This document shows, piece after piece, positions 10,416 to 32,760 of a stretch of DNA of 33,239 nucleotides; within the stretch, counting starts at the first letter, position 1; every line of letters begins with the position of its first letter. Under the pieces are notes generated by a model. The model was not told where the DNA came from. It did no database searches and saw only the letters and a program-made list of their open reading frames with translations. The translations under genes were made by a program, and so were the position numbers. Origin of the DNA: Lachnospiraceae bacterium (lineage in GTDB: Bacteria > Bacillota > Clostridia > Lachnospirales > Lachnospiraceae); NCBI GenBank assembly GCA_024699355.1, contig JAILPR010000208.1, positions 1-33,239 of the forward strand, in the 5' to 3' direction.

Positions 10416-10444
10416 CATCTATTTTGGATTTTTTTTTCAATTTC

Positions 10445-10473: not shown

Positions 10474-10558
10474 GGTACCTTGAACAGCGCACGGGATGCA
10501 TGCTTTGCAATCCTCCGCCGCTGAAATCCGAAGTTTCATGATCTTAAGGAGAGCCTTC

Positions 10559-11305: not shown

Positions 11306-11350
11306 TATGCTTTTTTCGGGCGAATCATCTGAATAAATATTCAATTGTGC

Positions 11351-11379
11351 TTGACCTGCCCTTCCTTGAATGCTACGAT
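11351..11379 (+). promoter_or_regulatory. SigA-type promoter of the nhaC-family gene
   Basis: TTGACC-N17-TACGAT. Confidence 0.6.
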
Positions 11380-11381
11380 AA

Positions 11382-11409
11382 ATGCAGTCGCGGACACAAG
11401 CGGCTGCAT
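11382..11409 (+). terminator. Hairpin 1 downstream of the DUF1275-like gene / at the 5' end of the nhaC leader
   Basis: ATGCAGTCGC-ggacacaa-GCGGCTGCAT (one G-T pair) followed by GATTTTTAC. Confidence 0.5.
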
Positions 11410-11422
11410 GATTTTTACAGTA

Positions 11423-11465
11423 ACCATGTACCCATACAATGATGTATGATGCATGGTATTTTTTG
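11423..11465 (+). promoter_or_regulatory. Hairpin 2 with U-tract directly upstream of the nhaC SD (candidate attenuator)
   Basis: ACCATG ... CATGGT with inner CATAC/GTATG pairing, followed by ATTTTTTG and then the AGGAGGG SD. Confidence 0.45.
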
Positions 11466-11483
11466 ATTACAGGAGGGAAAGAT

Positions 11484-12992: not shown

Positions 12993-13047
12993 CGTTCGCT
13001 TCTGATCACAGTAAACACGATGTTACCGCCTGATGCGGCACATATAA

Positions 13048-13083
13048 AAACGGCTCTGAAGCGAATGCACTTCAGAGCCGTTT
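13048..13083. terminator. Convergent intrinsic terminator between nhaC and the HD gene
   Basis: AAACGGCTCTGAAG-cgaatgca-CTTCAGAGCCGTTT, 14-bp perfect stem; T-tract on the minus strand (TTTTTATATG). Confidence 0.85.
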
Positions 13084-13086
13084 ACG

Positions 13087-13575
13087 TTAGGCATATACTT
13101 TTTTTCTGCGCAGCTTTCCTGCGACGATACATACAAAATCTTTGATCGAACAATATTTATCCGCATAGGTGATGACATATCCTTCCACCGTCTTTGGCGG
13201 GTGGATGGTCAGCGGAAACATATGATGCGATATGATGTCCACTTCCACTTCATTGATGTCCGGCAGGATCTCTTTGGCCACATCCACGGAATCTACCGGA
13301 TGCTGGAAGCAGCACTGCTTTCCGCTCTGATAGGTGTGACGGAATCTGGCAAGTCCCAGATCATGGCAAAGGGCGCCACGGATCATGGCACGATTGTCTG
13401 TCCTGACATGAAGCTTATTTAAAACCTTGCAGACTTTTAAACTGGTCATGGCCACCGAGTAACTGTGGTCTGCCACATTGCTGTTATAATGATGTTCGCG
13501 CGCCATCGCGCTTTGGTATGCTTCGGAAGTTAAAATCTCTCTTCCGACCCCACGGATCTCATCTCTGATCGACAT
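13087..13575 (-). CDS. HD-domain protein
   Basis: SNVADHSYSVAMTSLKV ... RGALCHDLGLARFRHTY ... DIISHHMFPLTIHPPKTVEGYVITYADKYCSIKD matches the H...HD...D arrangement. Confidence 0.8.
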   Translation of the reverse strand: MSIRDEIRGVGREILTSEAYQSAMAREHHYNSNVADHSYSVAMTSLKVCKVLNKLHVRTDNRAMIRGALCHDLGLARFRHTYQSGKQCCFQHPVDSVDVAKEILPDINEVEVDIISHHMFPLTIHPPKTVEGYVITYADKYCSIKDFVCIVAGKLRRKKVYA

Positions 13576-13718
13576 GCTTTGTATCCCTCATATCCTGCAC
13601 TGCAGTTCCGCTTCAGAATATCGCTTTTGGCATCAAAAAACAAGTTTTTTTTCAAAAAGATTTCTAAAGAATTCATGCAACCTCAGCCATCATAACGCAG
13701 AAATGTGAACAAAGAATG

Positions 13719-15587: not shown

Positions 15588-16738
15588 ATCCCAAAGTCTG
15601 ATCCTGACAGCAGATCCAGCGCTTCGAGATAGTAATAATCCGCATAGACCATCGTTACGTGATGTTCCTTATTATGGAAGGAGGCTGAGCAGTTTTGCAC
15701 GATGGCATCGCAGTGATCCGAGTAATCCGCGCGATGCTCTGCGATCTGCCGGATGATCCGGTAGCCGGTCTCCGCATAGCATGTCGCTTTGTGCTGATCT
15801 TTCGTCAGTTTTGCCAGTGTCAGAAATCCGCAGGCTAAGACGCAGGCACCGCAGGAATCCTCAAAGGTGCAGTCGGATGGCTGATCAAAGTCGATCGGGA
15901 TCACATAGGAAGCATCGATTTTTGTCAGACAGTACTCCGCGATCTTCTGCGCCGTCTCCAGATAGCTTTTCTTTCCGCTGTTCCGGTAGGCATTGGCAAA
16001 GCCGTATACGCCCCAGCCCTGCCCTCTCGTCCAGGCAGAGCCGTGGGCAAAGCCCTGTCCGCCATGACTTTTGAGCCGCTTACCGCTCTCCGGGTCAAAC
16101 TCCACGATGTGACAGCAGGATCCGTCCGCGCGTACAAAGGCTTGCATAACAGTGTCGGCATGTGCCATCGCGATCTGCGCAAATCTTGGATCCTTCGTCT
16201 CTCTGCTTGCCCAGAACAGGAGCGAGATATTTAACATACAGTCAATGATCGCCCATCCTCTCGTATCCTGCGTGCTCCCCGGAAGATCATTCCAGGCACG
16301 GATAAAAGATCCCGCCGGGTTGAATCTCCCTGCCAGGAGACTTGCCGCATGGAGCCCCGTCACCTTCGCATGATGGTCGCCCGTCAAGAGGTAATCCGCG
16401 ACCGCGCTTGGCAGAAACATAAAGCCCACATCATGATGCAGTCCTTCATACTGCGTAAAGCAGGGTGCAAGCATCTGCTCCTGCTTTCTGGCATAGTCAA
16501 GGTACTGCGGATCCTTCGTTCTCGCATAGAGCCTCCATAAAATCCCGGCCCAGAATCCGTTGGTCCACCAGTTGATCCCATTGTCGATTTCGTAATGAAC
16601 CGTTTGATCCGCGCGGTTATCATAATTTCCCTGTGCATCTGTCGTATAGGGAAGTTTCCATTCGTTTTTCACTGCCACCCTGCGCAGCTTTATTGTTGTT
16701 TTTTCCAGTTCGGCGATTGCCCAAGTTGTTTGATCCAT
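15581..16738 (-). CDS. GH88 unsaturated glucuronyl hydrolase
   Basis: NWWTNGFWAGILWRLYARTKD, HHDVGFMFLPSAVADY, GWAIIDCMLNISLLFWASRETKDPRFAQIAMAHADT, GSAWTRGQGWGVYGFA closely follow Bacillus UGL. Confidence 0.92.
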   Translation of the reverse strand: MDQTTWAIAELEKTTIKLRRVAVKNEWKLPYTTDAQGNYDNRADQTVHYEIDNGINWWTNGFWAGILWRLYARTKDPQYLDYARKQEQMLAPCFTQYEGLHHDVGFMFLPSAVADYLLTGDHHAKVTGLHAASLLAGRFNPAGSFIRAWNDLPGSTQDTRGWAIIDCMLNISLLFWASRETKDPRFAQIAMAHADTVMQAFVRADGSCCHIVEFDPESGKRLKSHGGQGFAHGSAWTRGQGWGVYGFANAYRNSGKKSYLETAQKIAEYCLTKIDASYVIPIDFDQPSDCTFEDSCGACVLACGFLTLAKLTKDQHKATCYAETGYRIIRQIAEHRADYSDHCDAIVQNCSASFHNKEHHVTMVYADYYYLEALDLLSGSDFGIW

Positions 16739-16741
16739 CTC

Positions 16742-18406
16742 TCACACATCCTTTACTTCAAAATAATCAAAATCCGCATAGATTCCGGCACCGGTCAGAT
16801 CCTGCGCACACAGCCCGATCATCGCTCCGCTGAACCACCCCTGAAGACAGGCTTCATCCGAAAGAAACGACGCATCGATCCGTGGGCCGATCAGGGTCAG
16901 CGGTAACTCACCGCCCTGCGGCGCAGCGCACACGCGATACGAAAACTGCGCATCGCCATCCCGCATGGCCACATGCAGCACCACATCTCCTTCCGGCAGG
17001 GTCAGCGGCTCTGTCAGGTATGTAACCACTTTGTTTTCATATTTCAGAAGCTGCAGGCATCTCCCCAGGTCTTCATCGAAGCTCACATGCAGATACAGGT
17101 AATTTTCCGTATCGTACAGCAGGATCAATCCTGCCATCTGCTTAAAGGATGTTGGGGCAAAGGACAGCAATGTCTCTGCTTCCATCCGGTAGGACGTCAT
17201 GCGTCGTGCGATCAGGCTCTGGGAAAAAAGCGAAGATAAGCCGCTTCGCCCGTACATGCGAAGCCATCCGGGGCGCGCGCGCAGCGAGCAGTAGGTATCT
17301 CCCATCGGGATACGCAGCGACTGATAGTCCAGATCGAGCGCGGCGCTGTCAAAGTCATCCCGTTGCAGCGCAGCACCCGGCGCAGTGCCCTGCGTAGCGG
17401 CCACCGGTGCGGCGACATATGTCTGCGGCACGCTGGTCACCTCTTTGGTCGCAGCCGCATACAGATACGGCCAGCCATCGTCTTTCCAGATCACCTGCTG
17501 GATCGCGGTCTCTCTGCCGAGCATATAGCGGTCTGCGCCTGCAAAGCGCGGCGCATCCGGCGGATTTTTGCGTCCGCTTTTTCGTCCGCACAAATGCACC
17601 ATATACCACTCGCCATCCGGACTCTCCACCAGGTCGGCATGCCCGGATTTTTGCAACAGAATCTCCGGAAAGTGGCGGGACGTCATGATGGAGTAGGCTT
17701 CTCCCCTCTCCCGGCGCGCCGGCGGATCCTGCTTCATCTCATACGGTCCCCAAAGATTTTTAGAGCGAAGGATCGATTGCCCGTGCGCTTCTCCCGTTCC
17801 GGTGTCCGCACAGAAGAGATAGTACAGACCGTCTTTTTTGAAGATGTGCGGCCCTTCCAGGAAAATGTCGGAGGCGGTATAAATGTCTTTGGCTTCCCCG
17901 ATCATGCGCTGTGCCACCGGGTCATATTCCTGAAGGATGATGCGGCCGGCATATTTTTTCGGCACCCGGTGATCGGTGACCATGGAAACCATATATTTCC
18001 TGCCATCCGTATCGTGAAAGAGCGAAGGATCAAAGCCGAAGTTCGATAATGCGACCGGCTCGCTCCAGGGACCATGGATGTCGGTCGCGGTCACCAGGAA
18101 GTTTTCGGTATCGTACATATTGCAGTAAAAGGAGCGCACGATGGTATAGACCAGATAAAAGGTCCCGTGATCATAGGTCAGGCAGGGCGCCCAAATGCCC
18201 TGTGAAGGACCAACGCCACGAAGGTCCAGTTGGCTGATGCGATCCAGCGGATACTCGATCAGCTCCCAGTGCTCCAGGTCTTTGGAATGATGCAGCCGCA
18301 CTCCCGGCCACCATTCAAAGGTCGATGTCGCGATATAATAGTCCTCTCCCACCCGGATGATCGATGGATCCGGATGAAAGCCCCGCAGGATCGGATTTGC
18401 TATCAT
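16742..18406 (-). CDS. GH43 beta-xylosidase/alpha-L-arabinofuranosidase-like enzyme
   Basis: NPILRGFHPDPSIIRVGEDYYIATSTFEWWPGVRLHHSKDLEHWELI ... GIWAPCLTYDHGTFYLVYT ... FDPSLFHDTDGRKYMV ... EGPHIFKKDGLYYLF. Confidence 0.93.
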   Translation of the reverse strand: MIANPILRGFHPDPSIIRVGEDYYIATSTFEWWPGVRLHHSKDLEHWELIEYPLDRISQLDLRGVGPSQGIWAPCLTYDHGTFYLVYTIVRSFYCNMYDTENFLVTATDIHGPWSEPVALSNFGFDPSLFHDTDGRKYMVSMVTDHRVPKKYAGRIILQEYDPVAQRMIGEAKDIYTASDIFLEGPHIFKKDGLYYLFCADTGTGEAHGQSILRSKNLWGPYEMKQDPPARRERGEAYSIMTSRHFPEILLQKSGHADLVESPDGEWYMVHLCGRKSGRKNPPDAPRFAGADRYMLGRETAIQQVIWKDDGWPYLYAAATKEVTSVPQTYVAAPVAATQGTAPGAALQRDDFDSAALDLDYQSLRIPMGDTYCSLRARPGWLRMYGRSGLSSLFSQSLIARRMTSYRMEAETLLSFAPTSFKQMAGLILLYDTENYLYLHVSFDEDLGRCLQLLKYENKVVTYLTEPLTLPEGDVVLHVAMRDGDAQFSYRVCAAPQGGELPLTLIGPRIDASFLSDEACLQGWFSGAMIGLCAQDLTGAGIYADFDYFEVKDV

Positions 18407-18478
18407 TTTCTGCCTCCGTATCAGATCGTGCGGCGCTTTTTGCGGCCGCAGGATTCGCTGTTATTCTGTTTTTACTCT

Positions 18479-18521
18479 AAAAAAACCGGCAGTGATATGA
18501 AATATCATCATCTGCCGGTTT
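18479..18521 (-). terminator. Intrinsic terminator between GH42-1 and GH43
   Basis: Minus strand AAACCGGCAG ... CTGCCGGTTTTTTTAG, 10-bp stem plus U-tract. Confidence 0.85.
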
Positions 18522-18554
18522 ACTGAACTATTCTGTTATTTAGGCTGCGATATG

Positions 18555-20579
18555 CTACTTACAAAGAACGCCTGCCTCAAAAGGCGCAAGACGCATCGTT
18601 CCGTAAATGGAAGAGCCGTTGATCAGATTCTCTCCTTCGATATGCGGGATAAATACCTCCTGATCGGAAACATTTAAATAAAATGCATAGCAGGTATCTC
18701 CCAGATATCGCTCATGATATTCCACGCCGTCCGGAAGCTCCTGCATCGGGATCTGACACGCTGCAAGGAGTTTTTTCAAATAGATCGTCTGCTGCGCCCT
18801 GCTGCCTCTGGCGGCAACATAATAGGCTTTGCCCTTGCCATAGTCTTTGACGGTCAGCGCAGGCTGATCCTTGTAAAAGTCCCCGGTATAGCTTGCCAGA
18901 ACCTTGGCATCCTGCAGGCGCAGGATCTCTGCATAGTCCTGCACTTCCCAGACGGAGCCGTCCGCAAAACGCATGCCGTTTCGATCCTTCGGATAGAGCG
19001 TATCGATCTCCTCACTGATCACGCCGAAAAGTTCCGATAAGCCATCTCCCGGAAAGCCGCCGAGATAGCAAAGCGTCTGCTCATCCACATAGCCGGTCAG
19101 ATAGGTCGCTACCAGTCTTCCGCCCTGTGAGACATAAGCTTTGAGACGATCTGCCATGCCCGGTTTTAAGAGATAGAGCATCGGTGCAAAGACCAGATCA
19201 TAGACGCCAAGGTCCTCGGTCACCGGGATCACATCCGCATCCACGCCAAGGGATAATAAATCTTTGTAGAGATTGACGCAGGTCGTTTCATAATTTTTGG
19301 TGTGCTTCGATAAGCCCATCATATCGTTGATCGCCCAGCGGTTGTCCCAGTCAAAAAGGATCGCCACACGGTTCTTTGGCAGAGAACCAAGCGCGCCTTT
19401 GATCTTTTCCAGGTCATCCGAAACCTCCCTGACCTCTCGAAATACTCTGGTATCATCCGTGCCGAGGTGATCGATGACCGCACCGTGGTACTGCTCGAAG
19501 GCACCTCTGCCTTTCCGCCACTGGAAATACTGCACGGTATCCGAACCGCAGGCCACCGCCTGCAGGCAGGAAATGCGATGCATCCCCGGACGCTTTAATT
19601 TGTTATAGTCGTGCCAGTTGACCAGACTCGGAGTGCTTTCCATCAGCATGAACGGACGATCTTTTTTCATCGACCGCATCAGTGAATGTTCAAAGGCCGT
19701 ATCGCCCATGGTTTCCGCAAAGGACTCACTGTCGTTGCCGAATCTCGGATACGAATCCCAGGAGATCACATCCAGTTCTTTGGCCATCTCATGATAGTCC
19801 AGCCCGCCAAAGAGCCACATGAAATTCGTCGTCACCATGGCCTCCGGTGTCGCTTCCCGCACAGCGTTGATCTCCGCTTTCATAAAGTCGATCGTATTGG
19901 CGGACGTAAACCGCCTCCATGCCAGATTTAACCCCATGACACTGCGCTCACCGTTGGCATAGGGCGGCTCTACCTGGTCAAAGGACTGATAACAGTGACT
20001 CCAGAAGGTCGTCCACCAGGCGTGATTGAGCGCCCGCACATCTCCGTGGAACATCTCTTTGACAAAGCCGCGGAACTTCTCCGCACAGGCATCACAGTAG
20101 CACTCGCCGCCGAATTCATTGGAGATGTGGAACATCAAAAAGCCCGGATGATGCCCGAACTTCTCCGAGAGCTTCCGATCCAGGATCGCCACTTTCTCCC
20201 GATAGATCGGAGAGGTCATACAATGATTGTGTCTGACCCCGTGGTGATTGCGAACACCTCTGTCGCTGACACGCATCGCCTCCGGATATTTCTCATCCAG
20301 CCATGCCGGTCTGGCTCCGGACGGTGTCGCCAGGATAAAGTAGATGCCGTTTTCGTACAGGCGATCTACGATCTCTTCCAGCCAGTCAAAGGTAAACTGT
20401 CCTTCCTCCGGTTCATAGACGGCCCAGGAGAAAACGCCGAGCGTCACACAATTGACGCCTGCCTTCTTCATCATGCGCACATCTTCTTCTAAAATATCCG
20501 GTCGATCCAGCCATTGTTCCGGGTTATAGTCCCCTCCGTGAACAAAGCCATCCACCTGTGGAAACAGCTTCTTTACCAC
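18555..20579 (-). CDS. GH42 beta-galactosidase-type enzyme (copy 1)
   Basis: GGDYNPEQWLDRPDILEEDVRMMKKAGVNCVTLGVFSWAVYEPEEGQFTFDWL; acid/base segment HISNEFGGECYCDAC; nucleophile segment LMESTPSLVNW. GTG start. Confidence 0.94.
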   Translation of the reverse strand: MVKKLFPQVDGFVHGGDYNPEQWLDRPDILEEDVRMMKKAGVNCVTLGVFSWAVYEPEEGQFTFDWLEEIVDRLYENGIYFILATPSGARPAWLDEKYPEAMRVSDRGVRNHHGVRHNHCMTSPIYREKVAILDRKLSEKFGHHPGFLMFHISNEFGGECYCDACAEKFRGFVKEMFHGDVRALNHAWWTTFWSHCYQSFDQVEPPYANGERSVMGLNLAWRRFTSANTIDFMKAEINAVREATPEAMVTTNFMWLFGGLDYHEMAKELDVISWDSYPRFGNDSESFAETMGDTAFEHSLMRSMKKDRPFMLMESTPSLVNWHDYNKLKRPGMHRISCLQAVACGSDTVQYFQWRKGRGAFEQYHGAVIDHLGTDDTRVFREVREVSDDLEKIKGALGSLPKNRVAILFDWDNRWAINDMMGLSKHTKNYETTCVNLYKDLLSLGVDADVIPVTEDLGVYDLVFAPMLYLLKPGMADRLKAYVSQGGRLVATYLTGYVDEQTLCYLGGFPGDGLSELFGVISEEIDTLYPKDRNGMRFADGSVWEVQDYAEILRLQDAKVLASYTGDFYKDQPALTVKDYGKGKAYYVAARGSRAQQTIYLKKLLAACQIPMQELPDGVEYHERYLGDTCYAFYLNVSDQEVFIPHIEGENLINGSSIYGTMRLAPFEAGVLCK

Positions 20580-20583
20580 GCTT

Positions 20584-22668
20584 TTACCCTCTTATCTTTC
20601 CTGCAACATATACATCGTTTGCATTGATCATGATCCTGCCGGTCAGCTCTTCTCCCGTCGTCAGGAGGCGGTAGCGGTCTTTTCCCAGATCCACCCACCG
20701 TTTGTCGCCGGCATGATTCATTATAAACAACACCGGCCCTTCTTTACCATCCCGAATCGTCATCTCAATGCCTTCTTCAAACCGGTAAGGGGCACAAAGC
20801 CCTGCCGATGCGCAGATGTTCTCCATCAGTGCATCCAGAAATTCCTGTTCGGGCGCTGTCCCGATGTAGTAGGCTTCTCCATTGCCATAAGAATTGACAC
20901 AGATCGCCGGCATTCCGGCATAGAAGTCCTCTCCGTATCCGGCAAGTACCTTCGCCCCAAGGTCAGCATGGATCAGGTCGCACAAAAAGCCGCACGGGGC
21001 CTGGTCCGGAAGCGGCGGCGCCGCATGGTCGCGCTCACCTGCTGTCGAAGCACCCGCTGCCGAAGCGCCGGCAAAGTGTTTCTTCCCCTCCGCGGTCAGC
21101 ACCAGTGTATTGTGTTCATAAGGGCGCAGCGCATCGGTCTCTTCCACGCGCAGTCCCAGAACGTCTTTGAATTTCCCCGGATATTCACCATAAACACAAC
21201 GGTCATTCTCATCTGCGATGCCGCAAAGTTCGGTCGTCACAAAGATCCCGCCGCCGCGCACATAGTCCGTGATGCGCTCTGCGATATCTCCCCTGCACAT
21301 ATAGAGCATCGGTGCCACCACAAGCTGATATGACGAAAGATCGGCATCAAAGGGTACAAAGTCGACCGCGATATTTTGACGAAACAGCGTCTCATAATAG
21401 GTCGATACGGTCTTTAGATAATCCAGGTCTTTGGACGGGCCGCTGGCCAGTTCCAGCGCCCACCAGTTATTCCAGTCAAAGAGGATTGCAGCCTTTGCCC
21501 TGCTGCGTGCGGTCAGGAACGCATCCCCGATTCTCTCCAGCTCTTCTCCGAGCGCCGTGCACTCCCGAAAGACGCGGGTATCATCCCGTCCCGCATGGCT
21601 GATCAGTGCGCCGTGGAATTTTTCCTGCCCGCCGATCGACTGACGCATCTGGAAAAACAGACAGGTATCGGCGCCGTGCGCCATCGCCTGATACGAAAGC
21701 ATGCGCACCTCTCCGGGGCGCTTTAAGCGATTATACGGCTGCCAGTTCTGCTGATTGGGTGACTGCTCGGTTAAGACAAAGGACTGCCCGCCCTTTAAAC
21801 CGCGCATGATGTCATGCTTCATCGCCACAAAGTACGGCGGATCATCCGGCCACGGATAATTATCCCAGCCGATCATATCCAGGTGCTTTGCCATCGTAAA
21901 CTGATCCAGCTTCTTGATGAAGCCGGACATGTTGGTCAGGATCGGGATCTCCGGATTGTAGGACTTTAAGACATCATATTCATTCTGAAAGCACGATGCG
22001 GTAGAGTCTGTCACAAAGCGCATATAATCCAGCTGGATCGTCGGATTGAAACGATAATCATCGTTTAACTCTGTCGGCAGCGTCACCTCTTCCACGTCCG
22101 TTAAGGTCCTGCCCCAAAAGCTTGTATGCCAGCGCGTATTCAGTTCTTCCAAGGTCCCGTAGCGCGCCATGAGCCACTCCCGGAACTTTTTCTGACAGGT
22201 CGGGCAGTAACAGTAGGTGCCGTATTCGTTGGATACATGCCACATCGCCAGTGCCGGATGATGCGCATATCGCTTTGCCATCTCTCCGGCGATCGCCGCT
22301 GCCCTCTCCCGATACTTTGCGCTGTTGACGCAGAAAAAGACTCTCATGCCGTGGGTCCGCTTTCTTCCCTGGATATCCACCGGCAATACCTCCGGATACT
22401 TCGTGGAGAGCCAGGCCGGCTGCGCCGTGGTCGGTGTCGCAAGGCACACCCGGATCCCGTTGGCCCAGATCTCATCGATGATCTCATCAAGCCAGCCAAA
22501 GTCATAGACCCCCTCTTTCGGTTCCAGCTTTGCCCAGGAAAAAACAGGGAGTGTCAGGAGATTGACATGTGCCTTTTTGAACAGTTTCATATCTTCGTGG
22601 ATCGTCTCTTTGTCCCACTGATCCGGATTATAGTCTCCGCCGTAATAGATTTTGGTCGCTTGTTTCAC
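20584..22668 (-). CDS. GH42 beta-galactosidase-type enzyme (copy 2)
   Basis: GGDYNPDQWDKETIHEDMKLFKKAHVNLLTLPVFSWAKLEP; HVSNEYGTYCYCPTC; VLTEQSPNQQNWQPY. The ORF-track start (22794) overlaps the neighbouring gene; GTG at 22668 after AAAGGAAC is a better start. Confidence 0.93.
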   Translation of the reverse strand: MKQATKIYYGGDYNPDQWDKETIHEDMKLFKKAHVNLLTLPVFSWAKLEPKEGVYDFGWLDEIIDEIWANGIRVCLATPTTAQPAWLSTKYPEVLPVDIQGRKRTHGMRVFFCVNSAKYRERAAAIAGEMAKRYAHHPALAMWHVSNEYGTYCYCPTCQKKFREWLMARYGTLEELNTRWHTSFWGRTLTDVEEVTLPTELNDDYRFNPTIQLDYMRFVTDSTASCFQNEYDVLKSYNPEIPILTNMSGFIKKLDQFTMAKHLDMIGWDNYPWPDDPPYFVAMKHDIMRGLKGGQSFVLTEQSPNQQNWQPYNRLKRPGEVRMLSYQAMAHGADTCLFFQMRQSIGGQEKFHGALISHAGRDDTRVFRECTALGEELERIGDAFLTARSRAKAAILFDWNNWWALELASGPSKDLDYLKTVSTYYETLFRQNIAVDFVPFDADLSSYQLVVAPMLYMCRGDIAERITDYVRGGGIFVTTELCGIADENDRCVYGEYPGKFKDVLGLRVEETDALRPYEHNTLVLTAEGKKHFAGASAAGASTAGERDHAAPPLPDQAPCGFLCDLIHADLGAKVLAGYGEDFYAGMPAICVNSYGNGEAYYIGTAPEQEFLDALMENICASAGLCAPYRFEEGIEMTIRDGKEGPVLFIMNHAGDKRWVDLGKDRYRLLTTGEELTGRIMINANDVYVAGKIRG

Positions 22669-22687
22669 TGTAGTTCCTTTCCACCGG

Positions 22688-25600
22688 TCAATTGTCGTAT
22701 ACCGGCACCATGGTTTCGATATAAGGTTCTTTGGTGATGCCTGTTGCAGGTACCTGTAAATGCGTGGAGGCGCCATCCTTGCGCTCCCAGACAAGCGTTG
22801 TCACCGCTTCAAGCAGGAGCGTATTTTTGCCGCTTTGCAAATGCTTCGTCAGATCGATACACCCCGGGAAGCCGCAGATCCAGCCCAGCTCCCGCTGATT
22901 CAAGGTCACCTTCACCGCATCGGATGCTTCCGGCAGGTGCAGTACATACGCCCGTTGTTCCCCGGCTTTCTCGATCTCGACCTCTCCCTCATAGCGATAC
23001 GTCCCGACAAAGGACGGATCATACGCCGGCGTATTGAGCGGCGGGTAGTCTCCCGGTGCTAAGATCTGCAGTTGCCGTTCCAAAGAGTCTCCCATCGCTT
23101 TGGCAGACAGGGTCCAGGGGATGTGCAGATTTTTTCGATTGATGCACTGTTTCGCCACCGGAAGGCCGTCGGCGCTCTCTTTCCGGAACCGTAGAAAAAG
23201 TGCCTGCCCGGGCAGGAGTTTCAGCGATACGCCGCCTTTTGGCACCGCAAAGGACTCCATCCGATCGCTCCAGGGATCATACTGCTCCCACAGACGATAG
23301 GCAGGATCCTTTGGCATCACGCGGACCCGGACTGTCTCATCGATACTTTCATTAAACCACATCGTGGTCAGCGTTTCACCCGCCTTCATACAAAAGGAAC
23401 GCAATGCCCTGTGCATCCCGGAGATGTCAAATGCGTCTCTCTGCAGTCTCGCACACAGTGCATCCGCATCCGCAACGATCTGCACGGCATCCGCAAACGC
23501 CGCAGGGACCATCTCGTGCGATAGCATCTGCTTGGGGAGCTGCCGCATCAGATAGATCGGCAGGCCTTCTTTTCCGGCCCGGATCACAAACTCCGCTGTC
23601 TGCGCATCGAGATATTCCCGGTATGGCAAAATCAGTGCCCCAAAGCAGACGCCGTTGATCCAAAGTTTCCCTTCGCGGAAATGGCATCCCGGCGCATCCG
23701 CCATACAGGCACTCAGGTCATCTTCCGTGACGAGGTCAAAATCCATCTGGTGCTCCATCAGCGCCCTTGCCGTAGTCTGAAACAGCTCGCACTCACCGCC
23801 GGACCACTCGGCCTCGGCATGATACAGGATCGCGGCCTCCGCGACATGGATGCCGCCGGATAAAAAGCGCGCCGCATGATTCATATAGCGCATCAGCTGC
23901 GTAAAGCAGGCAAACCCCGGATGTTTGCCCTGTACATAAAAGTGCGGCGGGCAGTCCCGGTCCGGATAGACCATGGAAAACGCATGCGGTGTAAACTCAT
24001 TGATCCCGCGCACCAGCATATGATCGGTCAGCCACTTCATCAGACTGTTGCCTTCCGCCCAGCCGTAATTTCCAAAGATCTCACACAAGGCTCTTCCCCG
24101 TTTATTTTCCTGCAGGTGTGCTGCCGATGCCGCGAGCTTTGCCAGACCGAAATGGAAAAATTCTCCGTCCCGGTCTCCTGCGATCCACTGGTGGACAGGC
24201 TCCGTAAAGCCCGGCACGATCTGATGATGTACCACATCGATGCCGGCCATGTGCTGGCCCTGCATTTCTCTGAAATAATGCCCGATGCTGCATCCCATGC
24301 GCGTATGGGCATTGTCATCCTCAATGATATGACCGATGTATGCTACGCCGTGCTCCCTGCACCAGGCACCGATCTGTCCGGAAAAACACTCCTTGACCAG
24401 CATCGTCATCCGGTCCATATAGGTGCTGCGTACAAGCGGTGTCTGTGCGCCTGCGTCATACCAGAGCGCGATGAGATTCTGTAAAAACTCCGTGCCCCAA
24501 AGACCACGCAACCGCTCTTCCAAAGCACTGCTCCAGGGCAGCTTTTGATCCCGGATGCCAAGCGTATCATCAAAGGGATAGCCTTTGACGTTGCCAAGCT
24601 CCGGCTCATCGGAGAAAAAGCCTGCAAAAGTCGTCCCAAAGTCATCTTTGAAATGCGCATAATGCGTTTCGTACACTTCATCGATCAATACCCGCACGGA
24701 GGAAGCATCGATCAGGTTCATATAGTCTTCTCTGCCGCCACCGTTCTGCGTCGTATAAAGGACAAAGAGACGGTATGGCCCTTTGGGCAGATCAAAGTAG
24801 ACAAAGCCGTTTGCGATCTTCTCCGTCAGATCGATCGCACCGTCCATGGACACTGCCAGGGTTTGCCCATCCGGCTTTGGCAGTGCCAGAACGCCCAACA
24901 GTTCTCCCCCCTGATAAAACGGCTCGATCAGCACCGCGCCCTGCCTGCAGGGTCCATAGATGTCCATATGGCGCTCCGCCAGATACCATTTTTTCTTTTC
25001 CGGACACCTCTCAAATGCCCCATTGGCATGACCGGTCGGGAACTTGTCATCATCCAGGATCCAGACGCGCATGCCTTCTTCTTTGGCGCGCTTTAGGACA
25101 AACGCTACCCGCTCCCACCAGGGCTCTTTGCAAAAGCCCGGAAACGGCCTCGACTCTAAACAGAGTTCTTTGATCCCGCATTCCCTGATCGCGCGGATCT
25201 CCCGATCGATCTCTTCGATCCCTTCGCCCTTCATCCACAGAAACGGGCGGATATGGCTATCCTCTTCAAACGGCTGATCCGAAGCGACGCAGATCGTACG
25301 GAATTCTCCGTAGGCATCCGTCGGATCGCCCGCCTTCCAGGGACGCGTTCCGCAATAGAAATGATACAGCCGCTTTCCGTCGTACACGATCGATGCTTTA
25401 TGGGCATGTCCGCAGTCATTCTCTCCCGGCATGCCAAACGGGATAACCGGATCTGTTGCTTTTTCCCAATGGATCAGATCTTTGGAAAGGGCAAGGCCCT
25501 CCTGCGCATGTGCATGCCCATCCGGATACACTTTCCCGTAGCCGAAATAAAAATCCACAAAGTGATCGTGATCTTTGACGATATACGGATCCGAAACAAA

Positions 25601-26296
25601 CCGCTCATCCCAGCTTTCCGGATTCACGCGCAGTACCGGATTTTGCGGGCATCTCTCCCAGTGTTTCAGATCATCGGAATAGGCCATGCCGGTCTGCTCG
25701 ATCCAGCGCTCCTGCTGGTCTTTGGCATTGTAAAACATATACCAGCGGCCATTGTGCTCGATGATGCATGCTTTATACAGGCCGCCCCGCTCCCAGTCCG
25801 CACCGTCTTTCCAGGAAAAGACCGGCTCATCCGGATAATGCCAGGTAAGCAGTTCTTCATCATCGCACCATGCCAGGCCGATCTGCGCGGGACCGTTCTC
25901 ATAGCCGGTCGATGGATAAGAATGATAGACCATCCAGTATTTGCCATCGATCTTACGCAGCTTCGGGATCGACCAAAGATCATCACTCTCCTTGATGATC
26001 CAGGTGGCGGCACCGCCCACATGATCCCAGCGGGTATGATCATCGCTCCGCTTTAGGATCACCGCTTTGTGCTCCCAGTGCAGCAGGTCAGTGCTTGTGG
26101 CAAGGGCAGACTGATAGCCGATGCCATCATACCCGGTATAGAGCATGTAATAGCGATCCCTGTGCCAAAAGACAAACGGGATATCCACTGCTTTTTCGTC
26201 AAAGGCGCCTTTCTTTCCGGACCCCGTAAGGACAGGTGAGGAATACCTGTACGGTGTCTGATATGCCTGCAGGATCGGATCTGTGTTAGATATCAT
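22688..26296 (-). CDS. 1202-aa bimodular glycosidase: N-terminal five-bladed-propeller glycosidase module + GH106-like alpha-L-rhamnosidase barrel with C-terminal jelly-roll
   Basis: N-terminal blades (ALATSTDLLHWEHKAVIL, GLAWCDDEELLTWHYPDEPV, GMAYSDDLKHWERCPQNPVL, GLALSKDLIHWEKATDPVI). From about residue 348 there is SHIRPFLWMKGEGIEEIDREIRAIRECGIKELCLESRPFPGF ... MRVWILDDDKFPTGHANGAFE, then a C-terminal YRYEGEVEIEKAGEQRAYVLHLPEASDAVKVTLNQRELGWICGFPGCIDLTKHLQSGKNTLLLE sugar-binding fold. SD AAGGAG. Confidence 0.75.
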   Translation of the reverse strand: MISNTDPILQAYQTPYRYSSPVLTGSGKKGAFDEKAVDIPFVFWHRDRYYMLYTGYDGIGYQSALATSTDLLHWEHKAVILKRSDDHTRWDHVGGAATWIIKESDDLWSIPKLRKIDGKYWMVYHSYPSTGYENGPAQIGLAWCDDEELLTWHYPDEPVFSWKDGADWERGGLYKACIIEHNGRWYMFYNAKDQQERWIEQTGMAYSDDLKHWERCPQNPVLRVNPESWDERFVSDPYIVKDHDHFVDFYFGYGKVYPDGHAHAQEGLALSKDLIHWEKATDPVIPFGMPGENDCGHAHKASIVYDGKRLYHFYCGTRPWKAGDPTDAYGEFRTICVASDQPFEEDSHIRPFLWMKGEGIEEIDREIRAIRECGIKELCLESRPFPGFCKEPWWERVAFVLKRAKEEGMRVWILDDDKFPTGHANGAFERCPEKKKWYLAERHMDIYGPCRQGAVLIEPFYQGGELLGVLALPKPDGQTLAVSMDGAIDLTEKIANGFVYFDLPKGPYRLFVLYTTQNGGGREDYMNLIDASSVRVLIDEVYETHYAHFKDDFGTTFAGFFSDEPELGNVKGYPFDDTLGIRDQKLPWSSALEERLRGLWGTEFLQNLIALWYDAGAQTPLVRSTYMDRMTMLVKECFSGQIGAWCREHGVAYIGHIIEDDNAHTRMGCSIGHYFREMQGQHMAGIDVVHHQIVPGFTEPVHQWIAGDRDGEFFHFGLAKLAASAAHLQENKRGRALCEIFGNYGWAEGNSLMKWLTDHMLVRGINEFTPHAFSMVYPDRDCPPHFYVQGKHPGFACFTQLMRYMNHAARFLSGGIHVAEAAILYHAEAEWSGGECELFQTTARALMEHQMDFDLVTEDDLSACMADAPGCHFREGKLWINGVCFGALILPYREYLDAQTAEFVIRAGKEGLPIYLMRQLPKQMLSHEMVPAAFADAVQIVADADALCARLQRDAFDISGMHRALRSFCMKAGETLTTMWFNESIDETVRVRVMPKDPAYRLWEQYDPWSDRMESFAVPKGGVSLKLLPGQALFLRFRKESADGLPVAKQCINRKNLHIPWTLSAKAMGDSLERQLQILAPGDYPPLNTPAYDPSFVGTYRYEGEVEIEKAGEQRAYVLHLPEASDAVKVTLNQRELGWICGFPGCIDLTKHLQSGKNTLLLEAVTTLVWERKDGASTHLQVPATGITKEPYIETMVPVYDN

Positions 26297-26301
26297 GGTT
26301 G

Positions 26302-28893
26302 TTACTCCTTTGTAAACGAATACTCATGTCGACCACACCCTACCGTTGCGATCCGGTGACCGTTGCTGTCACACAACGTTGCGCGGATACCAAACGGGAT
26401 CTGCACCTGTACGCGTATCAGGCTCCCCTCCCTGTCCCAACGAACAGACAGCGTTCCGCCCGGATGATTGGTCACCGCCTCCGCAAAGTCCATCTGTGCC
26501 GGGACATAGGGTTTGATCCGCAGATGTGCAACATTGCCTTCCCCCTTAATCCACTCCATGCCGCCGATGCCGCCAAAGAACCATTCCTCAATGCTTCCGA
26601 GCATCAGATGATTTTGCGAGCCGTGCGGATGCGCCGGATCCGGGCCGTCCCACTCTTCGGTCAGCGTCGTTGCGCCATGCACGACCTGATAGCCGTAGCC
26701 CGGCTTGTCGGTGATCCGGATCATCTGATCTAACAGATCATCCATCCCGTACTTCATCAGGGCCGCGACCACAAAGGGATGTCCGACATCTCCTGCCGTC
26801 GTCGCATAGCCGCGCTTTTCGATGTCCTCCCGCAGCACCTTTAAGACGCGCGCTTCCTGCGACTCCTCCACCAGGCCGCACATCAGGCTCATCGCCTGCG
26901 CTGCCTGACTGCCGGTCGCATAACGCCCCGTCTGATCATCGTAAAACTGCAATTGATATTCCCGGTAGATCTCCTCCGCCAGATCCGCATAGGTCACCAC
27001 ATCCTCCATCTTTCCGAGGAGCGTCGCGATATCCCGCAGGATACAGACATCTTTGTAATAAATGCAGGTTCCCACCAGAGAGATCGGCGTATTTTGCGAA
27101 TGCGGCGTATTCGGGCCGATGTCCAGCCAGTCCCCCAGTCCATGATGCAGGACATGATGATGGGTTTTTCCGGTCAGGTAGTTGACATAACGCCGCATGG
27201 TGTCATAGTGTGTACCAAGCACGGTCGCATCTCCGCTTCGCAGATACAGATACCAGGCATCCAGAATGCAGGCACTTCCCCATTCCGGCGAATCCACAAA
27301 GCCGGTATGCCACTTGTCAAACCCCGTGACATATTCCGGGCAGATATCCGGGATGAGGCCGTCCTCATGCTGTGCATCCGCCATATCCTGCAGGATCTTG
27401 GTATAGAGGCTTTGTGCATCAAACTGATACATGATCGAAGGTCCGATCAGATGGGTCTGCTCAAGCCACCCCAAACGCTCTCTGTGCGGACAGTCCGTAA
27501 AGTAACTTTTGGTATTGCTCAGGATCGCCTGACGGATGATCCGGTGGATCTGATTGAAGAGCTCCTCCGAACAGCGAAACGATCCCATCTGCCGCACCTC
27601 GGGATAAATGAACTCTCCGACCACCTGAAGGAGTTTGGGTAGATCGTTTCTCTCCGCCACCTCGGGGAGTGCGCCCTCCACTTCCAGATATCGAAAGCCG
27701 GTATAGGTAAAGTCCGGCGCATATTCCTGAATAGGTGAATCATCCGGTTGATAGATCCAGTGATAGTTTCTTCCGGTGACACTTTGGTCGACATGAACGC
27801 CGTCTTCACAGTCTTTGAGCAGTTCTCCCGGTGTCAGTACGATGGGGTCCGCAGAAGCTCCCGCGCCGGCGACTTTGATCCTTACCCGGCCCGTAAAGTT
27901 GGTGCCGAAATCATAGAGATAGGAATGATCCGTATTCTTAATGATCCGCACGGGTGAAAGTTCCTCCATGACCTTCAAGTGCTCTGCCGGATAAGCCACC
28001 AGCTTCCCTTCCGGTGCCGGCACAAGCGGTGCACGCTCCCAGGTCTCATCACACGGAATGTCCGGATCCGCATAGGCAGCCTTCATCCTGCGGGCATCAT
28101 AATAAGATCCGCCATACATCTCCTGATAGAGATCCGGTCCGATCCGCTGCATCCAGTGCTCATCCGTGGTCACCAGCTCCTTTGTCCCGTCTGCGTAAGT
28201 GATCCGCAATCGCGCCCACAGTTTCGGAAAGCCGTAACTGCGCGGATAGTAGACATAGCGCCCCTCATGCTCCGGAACATGGAACATGCCCCCGCCGAGG
28301 CGAAAAAGCAGCGCATTGTCTCCCTCTTTCAACAGATCGGTGACATTACTTGCCACATAAAAGCAACGCTTGCGATAGTCGCTCCAGCCGGGCTCTAAGA
28401 CATAGTCGCTCTCCCGTTGCCCGTTGATCAGCGCGCGATAATGTCCCAGACCGCAGACATACAGCTTCGCATCTGCGATCTCTTTGTCGCATCGAAAGTC
28501 CCGGCGGAACAGATGTGACCGATCTCCATCTGTTTCCCCGATCCAACCCCCTTCTTTCTCGCTCTCCGTACACAGTCCGGTTTCAAAATAGCTTTGTCCT
28601 TCTGCGGTCAGCACCTCGTTTTCCGTGCAGACTTTGACCCGGATCGTGATCAGATACCGGCAGTCGGATGCAAGCACAGCGCCCTGACAGATCACCTCCG
28701 TCTTTTGGATGCCATGCTCTGCCCCGCTCTCGTAAATGATCTGCCCATCCGCTTCTCTTGTCAGGATCACCCGGACTTCCTTTGCCACGCTTTCCTTCGG
28801 CGGATCCTCGATGATCCAGGAAATGACCGGTGCCTCACTTTCCACCGTGTTATGATGTTCGATATGATCTACCCGTATGGATGCTATTTTCAT
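26302..28893 (-). CDS. GH78 alpha-L-rhamnosidase-like enzyme
   Basis: VESEAPVISWIIEDPP N-terminal domain; RRDFRCDKEIADAKLYVCGLGHYRALINGQRESDYVLEPGWSDYRKRCFY; KSYFTDCPHRERLGWLEQTHLIGPS; C-terminal GGIGGMEWIKGEGNVAHLRIKPYVP. Confidence 0.93.
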   Translation of the reverse strand: MKIASIRVDHIEHHNTVESEAPVISWIIEDPPKESVAKEVRVILTREADGQIIYESGAEHGIQKTEVICQGAVLASDCRYLITIRVKVCTENEVLTAEGQSYFETGLCTESEKEGGWIGETDGDRSHLFRRDFRCDKEIADAKLYVCGLGHYRALINGQRESDYVLEPGWSDYRKRCFYVASNVTDLLKEGDNALLFRLGGGMFHVPEHEGRYVYYPRSYGFPKLWARLRITYADGTKELVTTDEHWMQRIGPDLYQEMYGGSYYDARRMKAAYADPDIPCDETWERAPLVPAPEGKLVAYPAEHLKVMEELSPVRIIKNTDHSYLYDFGTNFTGRVRIKVAGAGASADPIVLTPGELLKDCEDGVHVDQSVTGRNYHWIYQPDDSPIQEYAPDFTYTGFRYLEVEGALPEVAERNDLPKLLQVVGEFIYPEVRQMGSFRCSEELFNQIHRIIRQAILSNTKSYFTDCPHRERLGWLEQTHLIGPSIMYQFDAQSLYTKILQDMADAQHEDGLIPDICPEYVTGFDKWHTGFVDSPEWGSACILDAWYLYLRSGDATVLGTHYDTMRRYVNYLTGKTHHHVLHHGLGDWLDIGPNTPHSQNTPISLVGTCIYYKDVCILRDIATLLGKMEDVVTYADLAEEIYREYQLQFYDDQTGRYATGSQAAQAMSLMCGLVEESQEARVLKVLREDIEKRGYATTAGDVGHPFVVAALMKYGMDDLLDQMIRITDKPGYGYQVVHGATTLTEEWDGPDPAHPHGSQNHLMLGSIEEWFFGGIGGMEWIKGEGNVAHLRIKPYVPAQMDFAEAVTNHPGGTLSVRWDREGSLIRVQVQIPFGIRATLCDSNGHRIATVGCGRHEYSFTKE

Positions 28894-28912
28894 GTTACCT
28901 GATCACCTGTAG

Positions 28913-28949
28913 AAAAAGCGGTGTAACAATTTCTGCCACACCGCTTTTT
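28913..28949 (-). terminator. Intrinsic terminator between the solute-binding protein gene and GH78
   Basis: AAAAAGCGGTGT ... ACACCGCTTTTT, 12-bp perfect stem ending in a T-tract, 20 nt upstream of the GH78 start. Confidence 0.85.
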
Positions 28950-28983
28950 GATTCTATCCTTCCGTTACAAGTTTTCTACTGCC

Positions 28984-30792
28984 TTACTTTACAGTTTTTT
29001 CGTTTAAGGTTGCCAGAATGGTATCGAAATCATTGTCTGTCTGACTCTTGATATCTTCGATATAAGACTCCCATGCTGCATCATCATCGATATCCAGTTC
29101 GCCGACGATAAATTTATGTGCCAGCTCTTTGGTTCTGGTCTCGCATGCACCGCCATAGCTGAGCTGTGACTTATCGGTCTGCTCTTCTGCGGTCAGATAG
29201 GTTACCGGTGCACGATCATACGGAGATACGGAGTCTTCGCCGCCGTTGACACTGGACTCTACCCAGTACTTACCTTCGTAATAGCCATTGGACTCATTCC
29301 ACCAGGGCTCCGGCAAAGAAGCCAGCTCCAGCATCGCATTAAAGTCGATCGGAACGAACGGAATACCGGTACGGCAAACGCTCGATGCCATCAGACCATA
29401 GTCACTACCGGATGTATTTGCCGGGTTTTCAGCATTCATGATCTCATCGATGTAAACTTTCTCGCCGTCTACCACATTGTAGGTCACACCTTCGATACCC
29501 CAGTTGAGCAGTTCCACGATCTGATCGGAGTACTGATAATCGATCATGGCAACACAGTATTCCGGATACTCGGTCTCGCCGCTGATGTAGATACCGGATG
29601 CATTGGCATTTAAGGACTTACCGCCCTGCTTGGAACCCCATTTCCATGCGGTACCGTAATCACCGCTCGGCAGATATGCAAGACCCCATTCCATGGTATC
29701 TTCTGTCTTTGCGGTATTCCAGGATGCGACAGAACCTGCCCACAGCGTCGGGCAGATCGCACCGACGTTGGTCGTTGCCTTTACGGTACCCTGGTTAAAG
29801 TCTGCGGTTGCAAATTCCGGATCGATATAGCCTGCTTCATATAAACCATTGATGTATCTGAGCATGTCTCTGAAGTTGTCTTCGATCGGTCCGTATACCC
29901 ATTCCGTACCGTTGTTGTACAGGCAGTCCCAGGTATGGAAAATGCCGACAAAGCCACGATAGATGGAGTAATCTTTGGTGTTGTTGATGATGACATAGTC
30001 AAGGTCTAACGTGCCGTCATCGATCGCCGCCTGCATGTCTGCACAAAGCTGTGTAAACTCATCCAGTGTTGTCGCCGGAGTCCAGCCCATTTTCTGCAGG
30101 ATATCAAAACGATATGCAAATGCGGTAAAGGACTGTGCACCCAGGATATCATCCGGGTTATAAGAACCGTCGATGAAATAGTACATGGAACCGTCTTCGT
30201 TCTTTGCATAGTTCGGTCCGCCGTTGGTCTCTTCCAGATAATCGGTGTAGTATACCATGTAATCTTCATAATCGGAGATGTTTAACAGGGTACCGTCTTC
30301 ACCGTATTCCACGATAGCAGAGCCTTTGGTCGTTGTCGCGATATCCGGGATGTTGCTGCCGGCCTGCAGTACGAGGAGCTCGTTTTCACGATAGTCCGCA
30401 TACGGTGTTCTGGTCCAGGTGATATCCAGATCTACGCCCAGATAAGCTTCCATGCGCTTCTCCCACTCTTCCTGGATCATGGTACCGTCGGATGTAAAGT
30501 TAAATTCCGGAATGCTGACTTCCAGAGAAAGCACACCGCCCTCTACTTCCGGCAGGTTGATGCCGTTGGTCGCTGCGGTTGCCGCCGGATCATTCTTATC
30601 CAGGGTCGGCTCTGTTTTGGTGCTCTCCGCAGCATCCGCGCTCTCTGCGCTATCCGCTGCTGCCGCATCGTCCGCTTTGGTCTCTGCTGTCTTAGCCGTG
30701 TCGGATGCCGATGATCCGCATCCCAGTGCACTGACCGATACAGCACCGATCAGGCCCAGTACTGCAAGTTTCTTTAGTACGTTCTTTTTCAT
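28984..30792 (-). CDS. Sugar ABC transporter extracellular solute-binding lipoprotein (LplA-like)
   Basis: Lipobox MKKNVLKKLAVLGLIGAVSVSALGCGSS, Ala/Glu/Asp-rich linker, then an SBP fold (LDITWTRTPYADYRENELLVLQAGSNIPDI). SD AAGGAGGG. Confidence 0.93.
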   Translation of the reverse strand: MKKNVLKKLAVLGLIGAVSVSALGCGSSASDTAKTAETKADDAAAADSAESADAAESTKTEPTLDKNDPAATAATNGINLPEVEGGVLSLEVSIPEFNFTSDGTMIQEEWEKRMEAYLGVDLDITWTRTPYADYRENELLVLQAGSNIPDIATTTKGSAIVEYGEDGTLLNISDYEDYMVYYTDYLEETNGGPNYAKNEDGSMYYFIDGSYNPDDILGAQSFTAFAYRFDILQKMGWTPATTLDEFTQLCADMQAAIDDGTLDLDYVIINNTKDYSIYRGFVGIFHTWDCLYNNGTEWVYGPIEDNFRDMLRYINGLYEAGYIDPEFATADFNQGTVKATTNVGAICPTLWAGSVASWNTAKTEDTMEWGLAYLPSGDYGTAWKWGSKQGGKSLNANASGIYISGETEYPEYCVAMIDYQYSDQIVELLNWGIEGVTYNVVDGEKVYIDEIMNAENPANTSGSDYGLMASSVCRTGIPFVPIDFNAMLELASLPEPWWNESNGYYEGKYWVESSVNGGEDSVSPYDRAPVTYLTAEEQTDKSQLSYGGACETRTKELAHKFIVGELDIDDDAAWESYIEDIKSQTDNDFDTILATLNEKTVK

Positions 30793-30871
30793 GTTCCCTC
30801 CTTCTTAGAAATACCTTGTGTATTTGGTTCAGGCACCGCGGATTTCGCACTGCCAAAAACGCTGATATATT

Positions 30872-30899
30872 CGGATCCGCAAGGCGATCTGCCGATCCG
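30872..30899 (-). repeat. Structured hairpin between the LplC-type permease and the solute-binding protein gene
   Basis: CGGATC cgcaa GGC gatct GCC GATCCG, two stacked stems right after the permease stop codon; no U-tract. Confidence 0.5.
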
Positions 30900-30900
30900 T

Positions 30901-31809
30901 TTATCCTTTCACCGCACCGATCTGCATACCCTGTACGAAATACTTCTGCACGAACGGATAGACCAGAAGGATCGGTCCGATCGTCGCTACCACGCAGGCA
31001 TACTGCACGTTGAGCGGATTTAAGGTACCGTTGCTGAGCATCAGATTGGTATCGTTCATGCTGTCGGTTCCGGATGCAAAGACGATCTTACGCAGCAGCA
31101 TCTGGATCGGCTGACGATCCGGCTCTTTGATATAAAGTAACGCCTCGTAGTAACTGTTCCAGACACCGACCACGGACATCAGTCCGAAGGTTGCATAAAG
31201 TGCCTTGGAAAGCGGTACATAGATCGTCGTCAGAATGCGAAACTCTCCGGCACCGTCGATCCTGGCCGCCTCTCTGATCTCTGTGGAGATGCCTTTGTAA
31301 AACGCCCTGTAGATAAAGACGTTGTACGCAGAGAGCGCACCGGGCAGGATCAGTGCCCACCAGGTGTCATAGAGCCCCAGCTTCTGGATCAGGATATAGG
31401 TCGGTACCGTACCGCCGCTAAAGAACATCGTGATCAGCAAAAAGATCGCCAGTCCCTTTTTCAGGACAAAATCCGGTACCATCAGGACGTAGGCCAAAAG
31501 GGAGGTTAACGACAAGGATAAGATCATTGTCGCGACCGCGATCACAATGGTGTTTCCGTAAGCCCGAAAAATATTCTGTTCTTTAAACAGCAGCCGATAG
31601 CCTTCGAGAAAAATCTCCTTGGGATAAAATGTCACCTGCCCGGTCGAGATCATGCGATTGCTCGACAGGGAAATGGCAATGACATTCAGAAACGGATAGA
31701 TAAACACGATCGATAACAGTGCCATAAAAATGATCAGGCAAACATCGAACGTCCTGCTGCCGATATAAACTTTATTACGTACTTTCTGTTCTTTTTTCAC
31801 GTTTGCCAT
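30901..31809 (-). CDS. Carbohydrate ABC transporter permease (LplC/YtcP type)
   Basis: FINAL Pro-rich end (VQKYFVQGMQIGAVKG) typical of LplC; EAARIDGAGEFRILTTIYVPLSKAL EAA loop. Start may be GTG at 31800, better spaced from AGGAG. Confidence 0.92.
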   Translation of the reverse strand: MANVKKEQKVRNKVYIGSRTFDVCLIIFMALLSIVFIYPFLNVIAISLSSNRMISTGQVTFYPKEIFLEGYRLLFKEQNIFRAYGNTIVIAVATMILSLSLTSLLAYVLMVPDFVLKKGLAIFLLITMFFSGGTVPTYILIQKLGLYDTWWALILPGALSAYNVFIYRAFYKGISTEIREAARIDGAGEFRILTTIYVPLSKALYATFGLMSVVGVWNSYYEALLYIKEPDRQPIQMLLRKIVFASGTDSMNDTNLMLSNGTLNPLNVQYACVVATIGPILLVYPFVQKYFVQGMQIGAVKG

Positions 31810-31812
31810 CTC

Positions 31813-32733
31813 CTACCACATACTGTTTTCCGGATCGATCCGCCTGGTGATCATATTGGCACCGAATACCAGTGCAAAGCAGATGATCGAAACAAACAGG
31901 TTCACCGCCGTCGAATATGAGAACTTTCCTTCCACGATACCCTGTCTGTAGACGAAGGTCGCAATGGTCTCAAGGTCACTCATATTGGTACTGTTCTGCA
32001 TCAACAGGATCTTGGTGTAATCACTGTTTAAGACGTTGCCGACATTCATGATCAGCATGATCGTCGTGGTCGGCAGGATGGATGGGAAGACGATGTGTTT
32101 GACCTTTTGCCAGCGGTTGGCACCGTCAATGTTGGCCACATCGTAAAGTGAGGTATCCACATTCGAAAGTGCGGACAGATAAATGATGGATCCCCAGCCG
32201 ACGCCCTGCCAGATCGCGGAGCCGATATACAAGGGCAGGAAGTAGGTGCTGCCGTTGTTCATATCCACTCTCGCTGCACCGAAGAAGGCGCGGATATCAT
32301 TAAAGAAGCCCGTCGTGGACCCGAAGCCGTTTAACATCGAGCAGACAACCACGATCGAGATGAAGTGCGGAATATAGGAAATGGTCTGAACCACCCGCTT
32401 GTAATACTTTCCGCGAAGCTCATTGAGGAGCAGTGCGAAAATGATCGGCATCGGGAAGGTAAACAGGAGCGTCAGCACACCGATCTTTAAGGTGTTCCAA
32501 ATGATGTGTACGCAGTTGACGTTTTTAAAAAACGTCGCGTAGTTTTTGTAGACCGGATCGAGCCATGCGCTACCCCAAACGCCTTTGGCCGCCTTATAGT
32601 TTTTAAATGCGATCAGGATACCGTACATCGGAACGTACTTAAAAATGATGATCACAATGACCGGCAGCAGCGCCATCAGACAAAGGGTCCGCTGCTTTAC
32701 CAGCTGTTTCCAAAAACTCTTCTTCTGGTTCAT
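31813..32733 (-). CDS. Carbohydrate ABC transporter permease (LplB/YteP type)
   Basis: LMALLPVIVIIIFKYVPMYGILIAFKNYKAAKGVWGSAW; DVANIDGANRWQKVKHIVFPSILPT EAA loop; C-terminal NMITRRIDPENSMW. Start 32733 follows GGTGGAGGT. Confidence 0.93.
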   Translation of the reverse strand: MNQKKSFWKQLVKQRTLCLMALLPVIVIIIFKYVPMYGILIAFKNYKAAKGVWGSAWLDPVYKNYATFFKNVNCVHIIWNTLKIGVLTLLFTFPMPIIFALLLNELRGKYYKRVVQTISYIPHFISIVVVCSMLNGFGSTTGFFNDIRAFFGAARVDMNNGSTYFLPLYIGSAIWQGVGWGSIIYLSALSNVDTSLYDVANIDGANRWQKVKHIVFPSILPTTTIMLIMNVGNVLNSDYTKILLMQNSTNMSDLETIATFVYRQGIVEGKFSYSTAVNLFVSIICFALVFGANMITRRIDPENSMW

Positions 32734-32760
32734 ATCTCTTACCTCCACCTCTTACTCCCA

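Follow-up and report, generated by a model that had tools for sequence, protein, structure and literature searches.

A fused GH137–GH106 protein in a Lachnospiraceae operon is a candidate two-step exo-glycosidase for RG-II side chain B

A 33,239-nucleotide contig of a Lachnospiraceae bacterium (the whole stretch is hereafter called the window) encodes a 1202-aa protein that joins two glycoside hydrolase modules. Judged by sequence profiles and modeled structure, the N-terminal half is a member of GH137, the β-L-arabinofuranosidase family, with the corresponding activity predicted, and the C-terminal half represents a divergent branch of GH106, a predicted α-L-rhamnosidase. Both families are known; their modular combination is what is new here. 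On balance, we favor the view that it is a cytoplasmic, bifunctional exo-glycosidase that acts on side chain B of rhamnogalacturonan-II (RG-II), the plant pectin of greatest complexity, in two steps, β-L-Araf first and α-L-Rha second.

The fusion gene, an uninterrupted ORF of 1202 codons, occupies positions 22688–26296 and is read from the minus strand (26296→22688), with a GGAG-type ribosome site 5' of its ATG. An initial annotation, made from the letters alone, had described a 1202-aa fusion at these positions, and the continuous ORF bears this out; the strand had been missing from that description. The split had been placed near nt 25255, close to the module boundary that we locate at about residue 344 (nt ~25267). 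The repeated S.DL.HWE blades reported for the first ~345 residues were recovered as S.DL.HW at residues 68, 207, and 271, and the barrel-strand sequence reported for the rest of the protein, RVWILDDDKFPTGHANG, is at residue 410. By eye, there is no obvious signal peptide at the N-terminus (MISNTDPILQAYQTPYRY), which fits the earlier suggestion of an intracellular protein; the enzyme is probably cytoplasmic.

The GH137 module, a five-bladed β-propeller, spans residues 1–345 (25262–26296, minus strand), as assigned by profile search, Foldseek, and NCBIfam. A profile built from 15 relatives of the N module (A2) matched the solved GH137 domain of BT0996 (5mt2/5muj/5mui) with an E value of 2.4e-70, while the next family, GH130, reached 3.4e-22. 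The AlphaFold model of this half (pLDDT 95.0) has 5mt2 (BT_0996) as its best PDB match in Foldseek (E 9.6e-23, TM 0.80; next 4e-13), and the NCBIfam model of BT0996 type ("beta-D-glucuronidase/beta-L-arabinofuranosidase") matched residues 8–317 at 5.6e-39. The sole Pfam calls for the N-terminus, from the single sequence, were weak ones to GH43, GH130, and GH32. We rejected a generic GH43, GH32, or GH130 propeller: GH137 leads the profile search by a factor of some 48 orders of magnitude, its similarity extends over the full length, and GH43, GH130, GH32, and GH117 all score worse. The propeller glycosidase of the initial annotation is thereby identified as GH137 rather than a generic GH43-like module, at ~26% identity to the GH137 domain of BT0996.

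By alignment, E133 (25898–25900, minus strand) corresponds to BT0996 E159 and E200 (25697–25699, minus strand) to BT0996 E240, and both are invariant in all 15 relatives, as are D38, K175, H299, and K300. The two BT0996 glutamates form its catalytic pair. PDB chain 5mui differs from 5mt2 by a change of E to Q exactly at E240, which marks this residue out as functionally important.

The GH106 module (Ram106B-like) occupies residues 344–1202 (22691–25267, minus strand), with a TIM-barrel-type core and a C-terminal jelly roll. Pfam returned no match for this half when the fusion protein was searched alone, although PF17132 was matched in 34 of the 37 C-module relatives, the window protein excepted. 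By itself, the missing match would have suggested a C half unrelated to GH106, a reading that family profiles overturned. A profile built from the 37 relatives (A1) aligned with 14 GH106 proteins over 795 columns, through both the barrel and the C-terminal jelly roll (hhalign E 6.4e-90), which upholds the GH106-like label first given to the module. Against the PDB, the same profile retrieved the RHA-P and BT0986 structures (6q2f, 1.1e-24; 5mwk/5mqm, ~4e-23). Foldseek with the AlphaFold model of the C half (pLDDT 91.5) returned 6q2f (6.0e-42) and 5mqm (3.2e-36), with the next fold at 7e-14; the best PDB folds of the two modeled halves are GH137 and GH106, respectively, by a wide margin. NCBIfam also calls GH106-type rhamnosidases at the C-terminus of the fusion. 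Identity to the GH106 structures is ~11–14%.

The C module resembles BT0986, the GH106 α-L-rhamnosidase of B. thetaiotaomicron for chain B, in its fold and in two aligned residues: E739 (24080–24082, minus strand; invariant in 37/37 relatives) corresponds to the general base E593, and D563 (24608–24610, minus strand) to D458. Unlike BT0986, a free-standing enzyme of 1105 aa with which it shares ~11–12% identity over the structure, the C module has E564 directly after D563 in place of S459 (the Ram106B pattern), H656 in place of E538, and D687 in place of E561. For E461, the proposed general acid, the relatives show no conserved counterpart: only 17 of the 37 have E at position 566. The C module thus departs from the arrangement of general acid E461 and Ca ligands that BT0986 shares with typical GH106 members. 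Asp-Glu, His, and Asp substitutions at the metal/acid positions are also found in active Ram106B rhamnosidases (PMC6828813). Because these active enzymes show the same departures, we place the C module in the Ram106B branch, still inside GH106, the family to which CAZy assigns them. The likeness, drawn from the published description of this group (GH106_dist; Tm, Tn, Cb, and Ts_Ram106B), extends to the lack of a signal peptide and to Firmicutes and Thermotogae hosts. Unlike the fusion, the Ram106B enzymes were characterized as stand-alone rhamnosidases, and their natural substrates are unknown.

A locus search, together with the window, gave 13 genomes with a close GH137 relative. A single fused ORF is present in three of them (the window, L007 from Butyrivibrio, and L006 from Acetatifactor), so the architecture recurs in two more genomes. 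Seven have adjacent but separate GH137 and GH106 genes (L008, from the cultured Murimonas intestini DSM 26524, L009, L010, L011, L015, L018, and L020), in keeping with the initial remark that such modules are normally separate, and in the remaining three (L012/L077, L013/L080, and L025) the two genes lie apart. The other two fusions are 57–68% identical to that of the window and share its junction position. In the C-module tree, the three fused proteins group together as one clade (support 96/94), whereas the N-module tree is too shallow to place the fused N modules. The separate genes of L011 and L020 overlap in an ATGA stop/start, and the fused junction, compared with L011, is without the last GH137 residues and without ~13 residues at the GH106 start. 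This shortfall suggests a small deletion across the gene overlap, and we propose that the fusion arose from the joining of two adjacent genes.

The fusion sits in an operon on the minus strand. Two ABC sugar permeases (31813–32748, PF00528 1.8e-15; 30901–31809, PF00528 5.4e-14) are followed by a 602-aa protein (28984–30792) that is probably the solute-binding lipoprotein of the importer; it has a lipobox-like N-terminus and adjoins permeases in at least 10 related loci, and domain searches gave no family match for it. Next come a GH78 α-L-rhamnosidase (26302–28893; PF17389 4.4e-92), the fusion, and two GH42 paralogues, a (20584–22794; PF02449 7.3e-144) and b (18555–20579; PF02449 3.5e-142). 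The listed ORF of GH42a begins at a TTG within the 3' end of the fusion gene, and its true start is probably downstream of 22688, since homologues are shorter. The order permease, permease, binding protein, GH78, GH137, GH106, GH42a, GH42b is common to the window, L008, L009, L015, and L018. Variants of the operon occur in L007, L010, L011, L077, L006 (GH78 missing from its slot), and L014 and L016 (GH106 without an adjacent close GH137). GH43, GH88/105-type, and GH31 genes at 13719–18406 (minus, the direction of the fusion) fall outside the conserved core and were absent from the syntenic loci by BLAST. The GC content of the operon (13719–32748) is 0.535 versus 0.496 in the first 13 kb of the window, and none of the sampled genomes of the source's own family carries the GH137 gene; together, these observations point to a possible horizontal gain.

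Aceric acid occurs specifically in RG-II. Of the 13 carriers of a close GH137, 10 have a homologue of aceric acid hydrolase that scores >700 bits, as against 3 of 389 others in the class (Fisher 3e-15, an overstated significance, the genomes not being independent). A strong apiosidase (GH140) is likewise present in 10/13 carriers versus 30/389 (Fisher 7e-9, again overstated because kinship is not corrected for). Across the class, 5 of 391 genomes have a hydrolase homologue above 700 bits, with no scores between ~710 and ~530 bits; all matches are under the model's 950-bit cut-off. The carriers that lack a strong apiosidase are L009, L013/L080, and L025, and those that lack a strong hydrolase homologue are L020, L013/L080, and L025; some carriers are incomplete MAGs. 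These RG-II marker enzymes are in part physically linked to the GH137/GH106 pair. On the fusion contig of L006, whose identity was verified, the region 14–25 kb upstream holds a GH140, a GH78, a further gene of GH106 type, and a sialidase-like BNR protein, as well as an aceric acid hydrolase homologue, the last a full-length match (1.2e-216, 721 bits) ~14 kb from the fusion. In L010, the homologue lies ~12 kb downstream of GH106 on the same contig. The window's genome has its own homologue on contig C71 (751 bits), and a separate locus on C63 (L128; G000:C63:8000-23108) encodes at 1999–15107 a GH4, an ABC importer, a GH65-like protein, a GH140 apiosidase, a GH95, and a GH31, and resembles an RG-II side chain A locus.

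In many plants, the Arap of chain B is substituted with Rha at O-3 and with either Rha or Araf-Rha at O-2 (PMC8218411). On this chain, the GH137 of BT0996 acts before any other enzyme and strips off the terminal arabinose (PMC9843283), a chain B heptasaccharide has been suggested as the substrate of BT0986, a GH106 enzyme (PMC6828813), and GH42 includes β-galactosidase/α-L-arabinopyranosidases (PMC10673005), for example PDB 5xb7. When the outer sugars of chain B (Araf–Rha–[Rha]–Arap–Gal) are matched to the operon, its GH137, GH106, GH78, and GH42 pair supply one plausible enzyme per sugar. We suggest that the adjacent ABC transporter would import an oligosaccharide with the chain B terminus, from which the GH137 module would take off the terminal β-L-arabinofuranose. 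This would bare the α-L-rhamnose on O-2 of arabinopyranose, which the GH106 module would then cleave. The second rhamnose, at O-3, would probably fall to the GH78 enzyme, and α-L-Arap and β-D-Gal probably to the two GH42s. The evidence is consistent with the initial proposal that the fusion cleaves two successive linkages; we infer this succession, as we do the substrate, the order of cleavage, and the roles of GH78 and GH42. Specificity could have shifted, because identity to the characterized GH137 and GH106 enzymes is low.

Like the role proposed here, BT0996 of B. thetaiotaomicron (GH137 + GH2 + CBMs) is a bifunctional RG-II exo-enzyme in one polypeptide, and like the fusion it begins with a GH137 propeller that has the same catalytic pair. 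Unlike the fusion, in which the partner is GH106, BT0996 serves two different chains, B through its GH137 and A through its GH2 glucuronidase; it also has a signal peptide and CBMs, whereas the fusion has no CBM, and it belongs to a Bacteroidetes PUL rather than standing beside an ABC importer. In a broader scheme, the fusion would belong to a Gram-positive, importer-based cytoplasmic pathway for chain B, unlike the PUL strategy of Bacteroidetes, and the covalent link would deliver the rhamnoside freshly bared at the GH137 site directly to that of GH106. We regard this scheme as rather doubtful, and the hand-off between modules is speculation.

Degradation of RG-II by PULs of Bacteroidetes has been described, and complete RG-II PULs are known from rumen isolates of this phylum in the Hungate1000 survey (PMC6118326). 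The literature that we searched, with most subscription papers outside its reach, held no report of an RG-II system in Clostridia or of a GH137–GH106 fusion, and no characterized architecture of this kind, in line with the initial annotation's view of it as undescribed. The candidate Gram-positive RG-II operon is apparently undescribed as well. The conserved Clostridia operon, together with the aceric acid hydrolase homologues and apiosidase of its carriers, opens the use of RG-II by Gram-positive gut bacteria to direct testing. The fusion could serve as a compact reagent for chain B trimming, and it offers a case in which the order of two cuts is predicted from a gene fusion.

We considered four other readings. 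First, the GH106 half might cut a different linkage, such as the O-3 rhamnose of chain B or a rhamnose of chain A, with the fusion coupling expression rather than consecutive cuts. B. thetaiotaomicron has several α-rhamnosidases for RG-II, one of which, BT1001, acts on an oligosaccharide of chain A (PMC7939467), the GH78 of the operon could take the O-2 rhamnose, and the L014 and L016 operons keep GH106 without a close GH137 beside it. However, it is GH106, not GH78, that directly follows GH137 in intact clusters and is fused to it, and the chain B enzyme BT0986 is itself a GH106 (PMC6828813); we consider this reading unlikely. Second, both modules might act successively on another plant glycan with β-L-Araf-capped α-L-rhamnose, for example an arabinogalactan or an RG-I decoration. 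The low identity to characterized enzymes would allow this, and the GH43, GH105-type, and GH31 genes would suit other pectin or arabinogalactan fragments. Yet these genes are not part of the conserved core, the RG-II markers co-occur with the pair (in L006 and L010, the hydrolase homologue even shares a contig with it), and Araf on Rha on Arap is documented in RG-II chain B (PMC8218411), so that we rate it slightly lower still. Third, GH106 alone might be catalytic, with the propeller binding or positioning the substrate, an alternative already raised in the initial annotation. Propeller folds can be recruited for binding, and identity to BT0996 is just ~26%, but the two invariant glutamates and the four other invariant residues weaken this idea, as does the occurrence of the same protein as a free-standing operon gene in seven loci, and it appears very improbable. 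Finally, an assembly or frame artefact deserves practically no weight, even with a source assembly of 294 contigs and 76% completeness, because two independent genomes contain the same continuous ORF, 57–68% identical and with the same junction.

Beyond the two-step chain B enzyme that we favor, related loci showed further variation. In L010, two GH2 genes (13720–20258) stand in for the GH42 pair, an apparent non-orthologous replacement of the galactosidase/arabinopyranosidase pair. In L015, the GH42 pair is followed by a gene of URO-D/MtaA type (18105–19175; corrinoid methyltransferase-like), with an ORF of the same size at the equivalent position in L018; this gene could encode an O-demethylase for methylated RG-II sugars. 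Two Blautia contigs (L016, 16610–17671; L017, 9881–10882) carry a distant propeller (~30%) beside GH106 instead of a close GH137, possibly for a different cap sugar. A different GH137 architecture, probably extracellular, is found in L120 (7252–10962) and L121 (8338–12051), where a 1237-aa GH137-like protein has a FIVAR domain and other surface-protein features. Lastly, the window's genome encodes a second GH106 of the C-module family (L002; G000:C95:8232-10715; 39%), which falls in a clade without GH137 partners and lies near a two-component system and what is probably an ABC importer.
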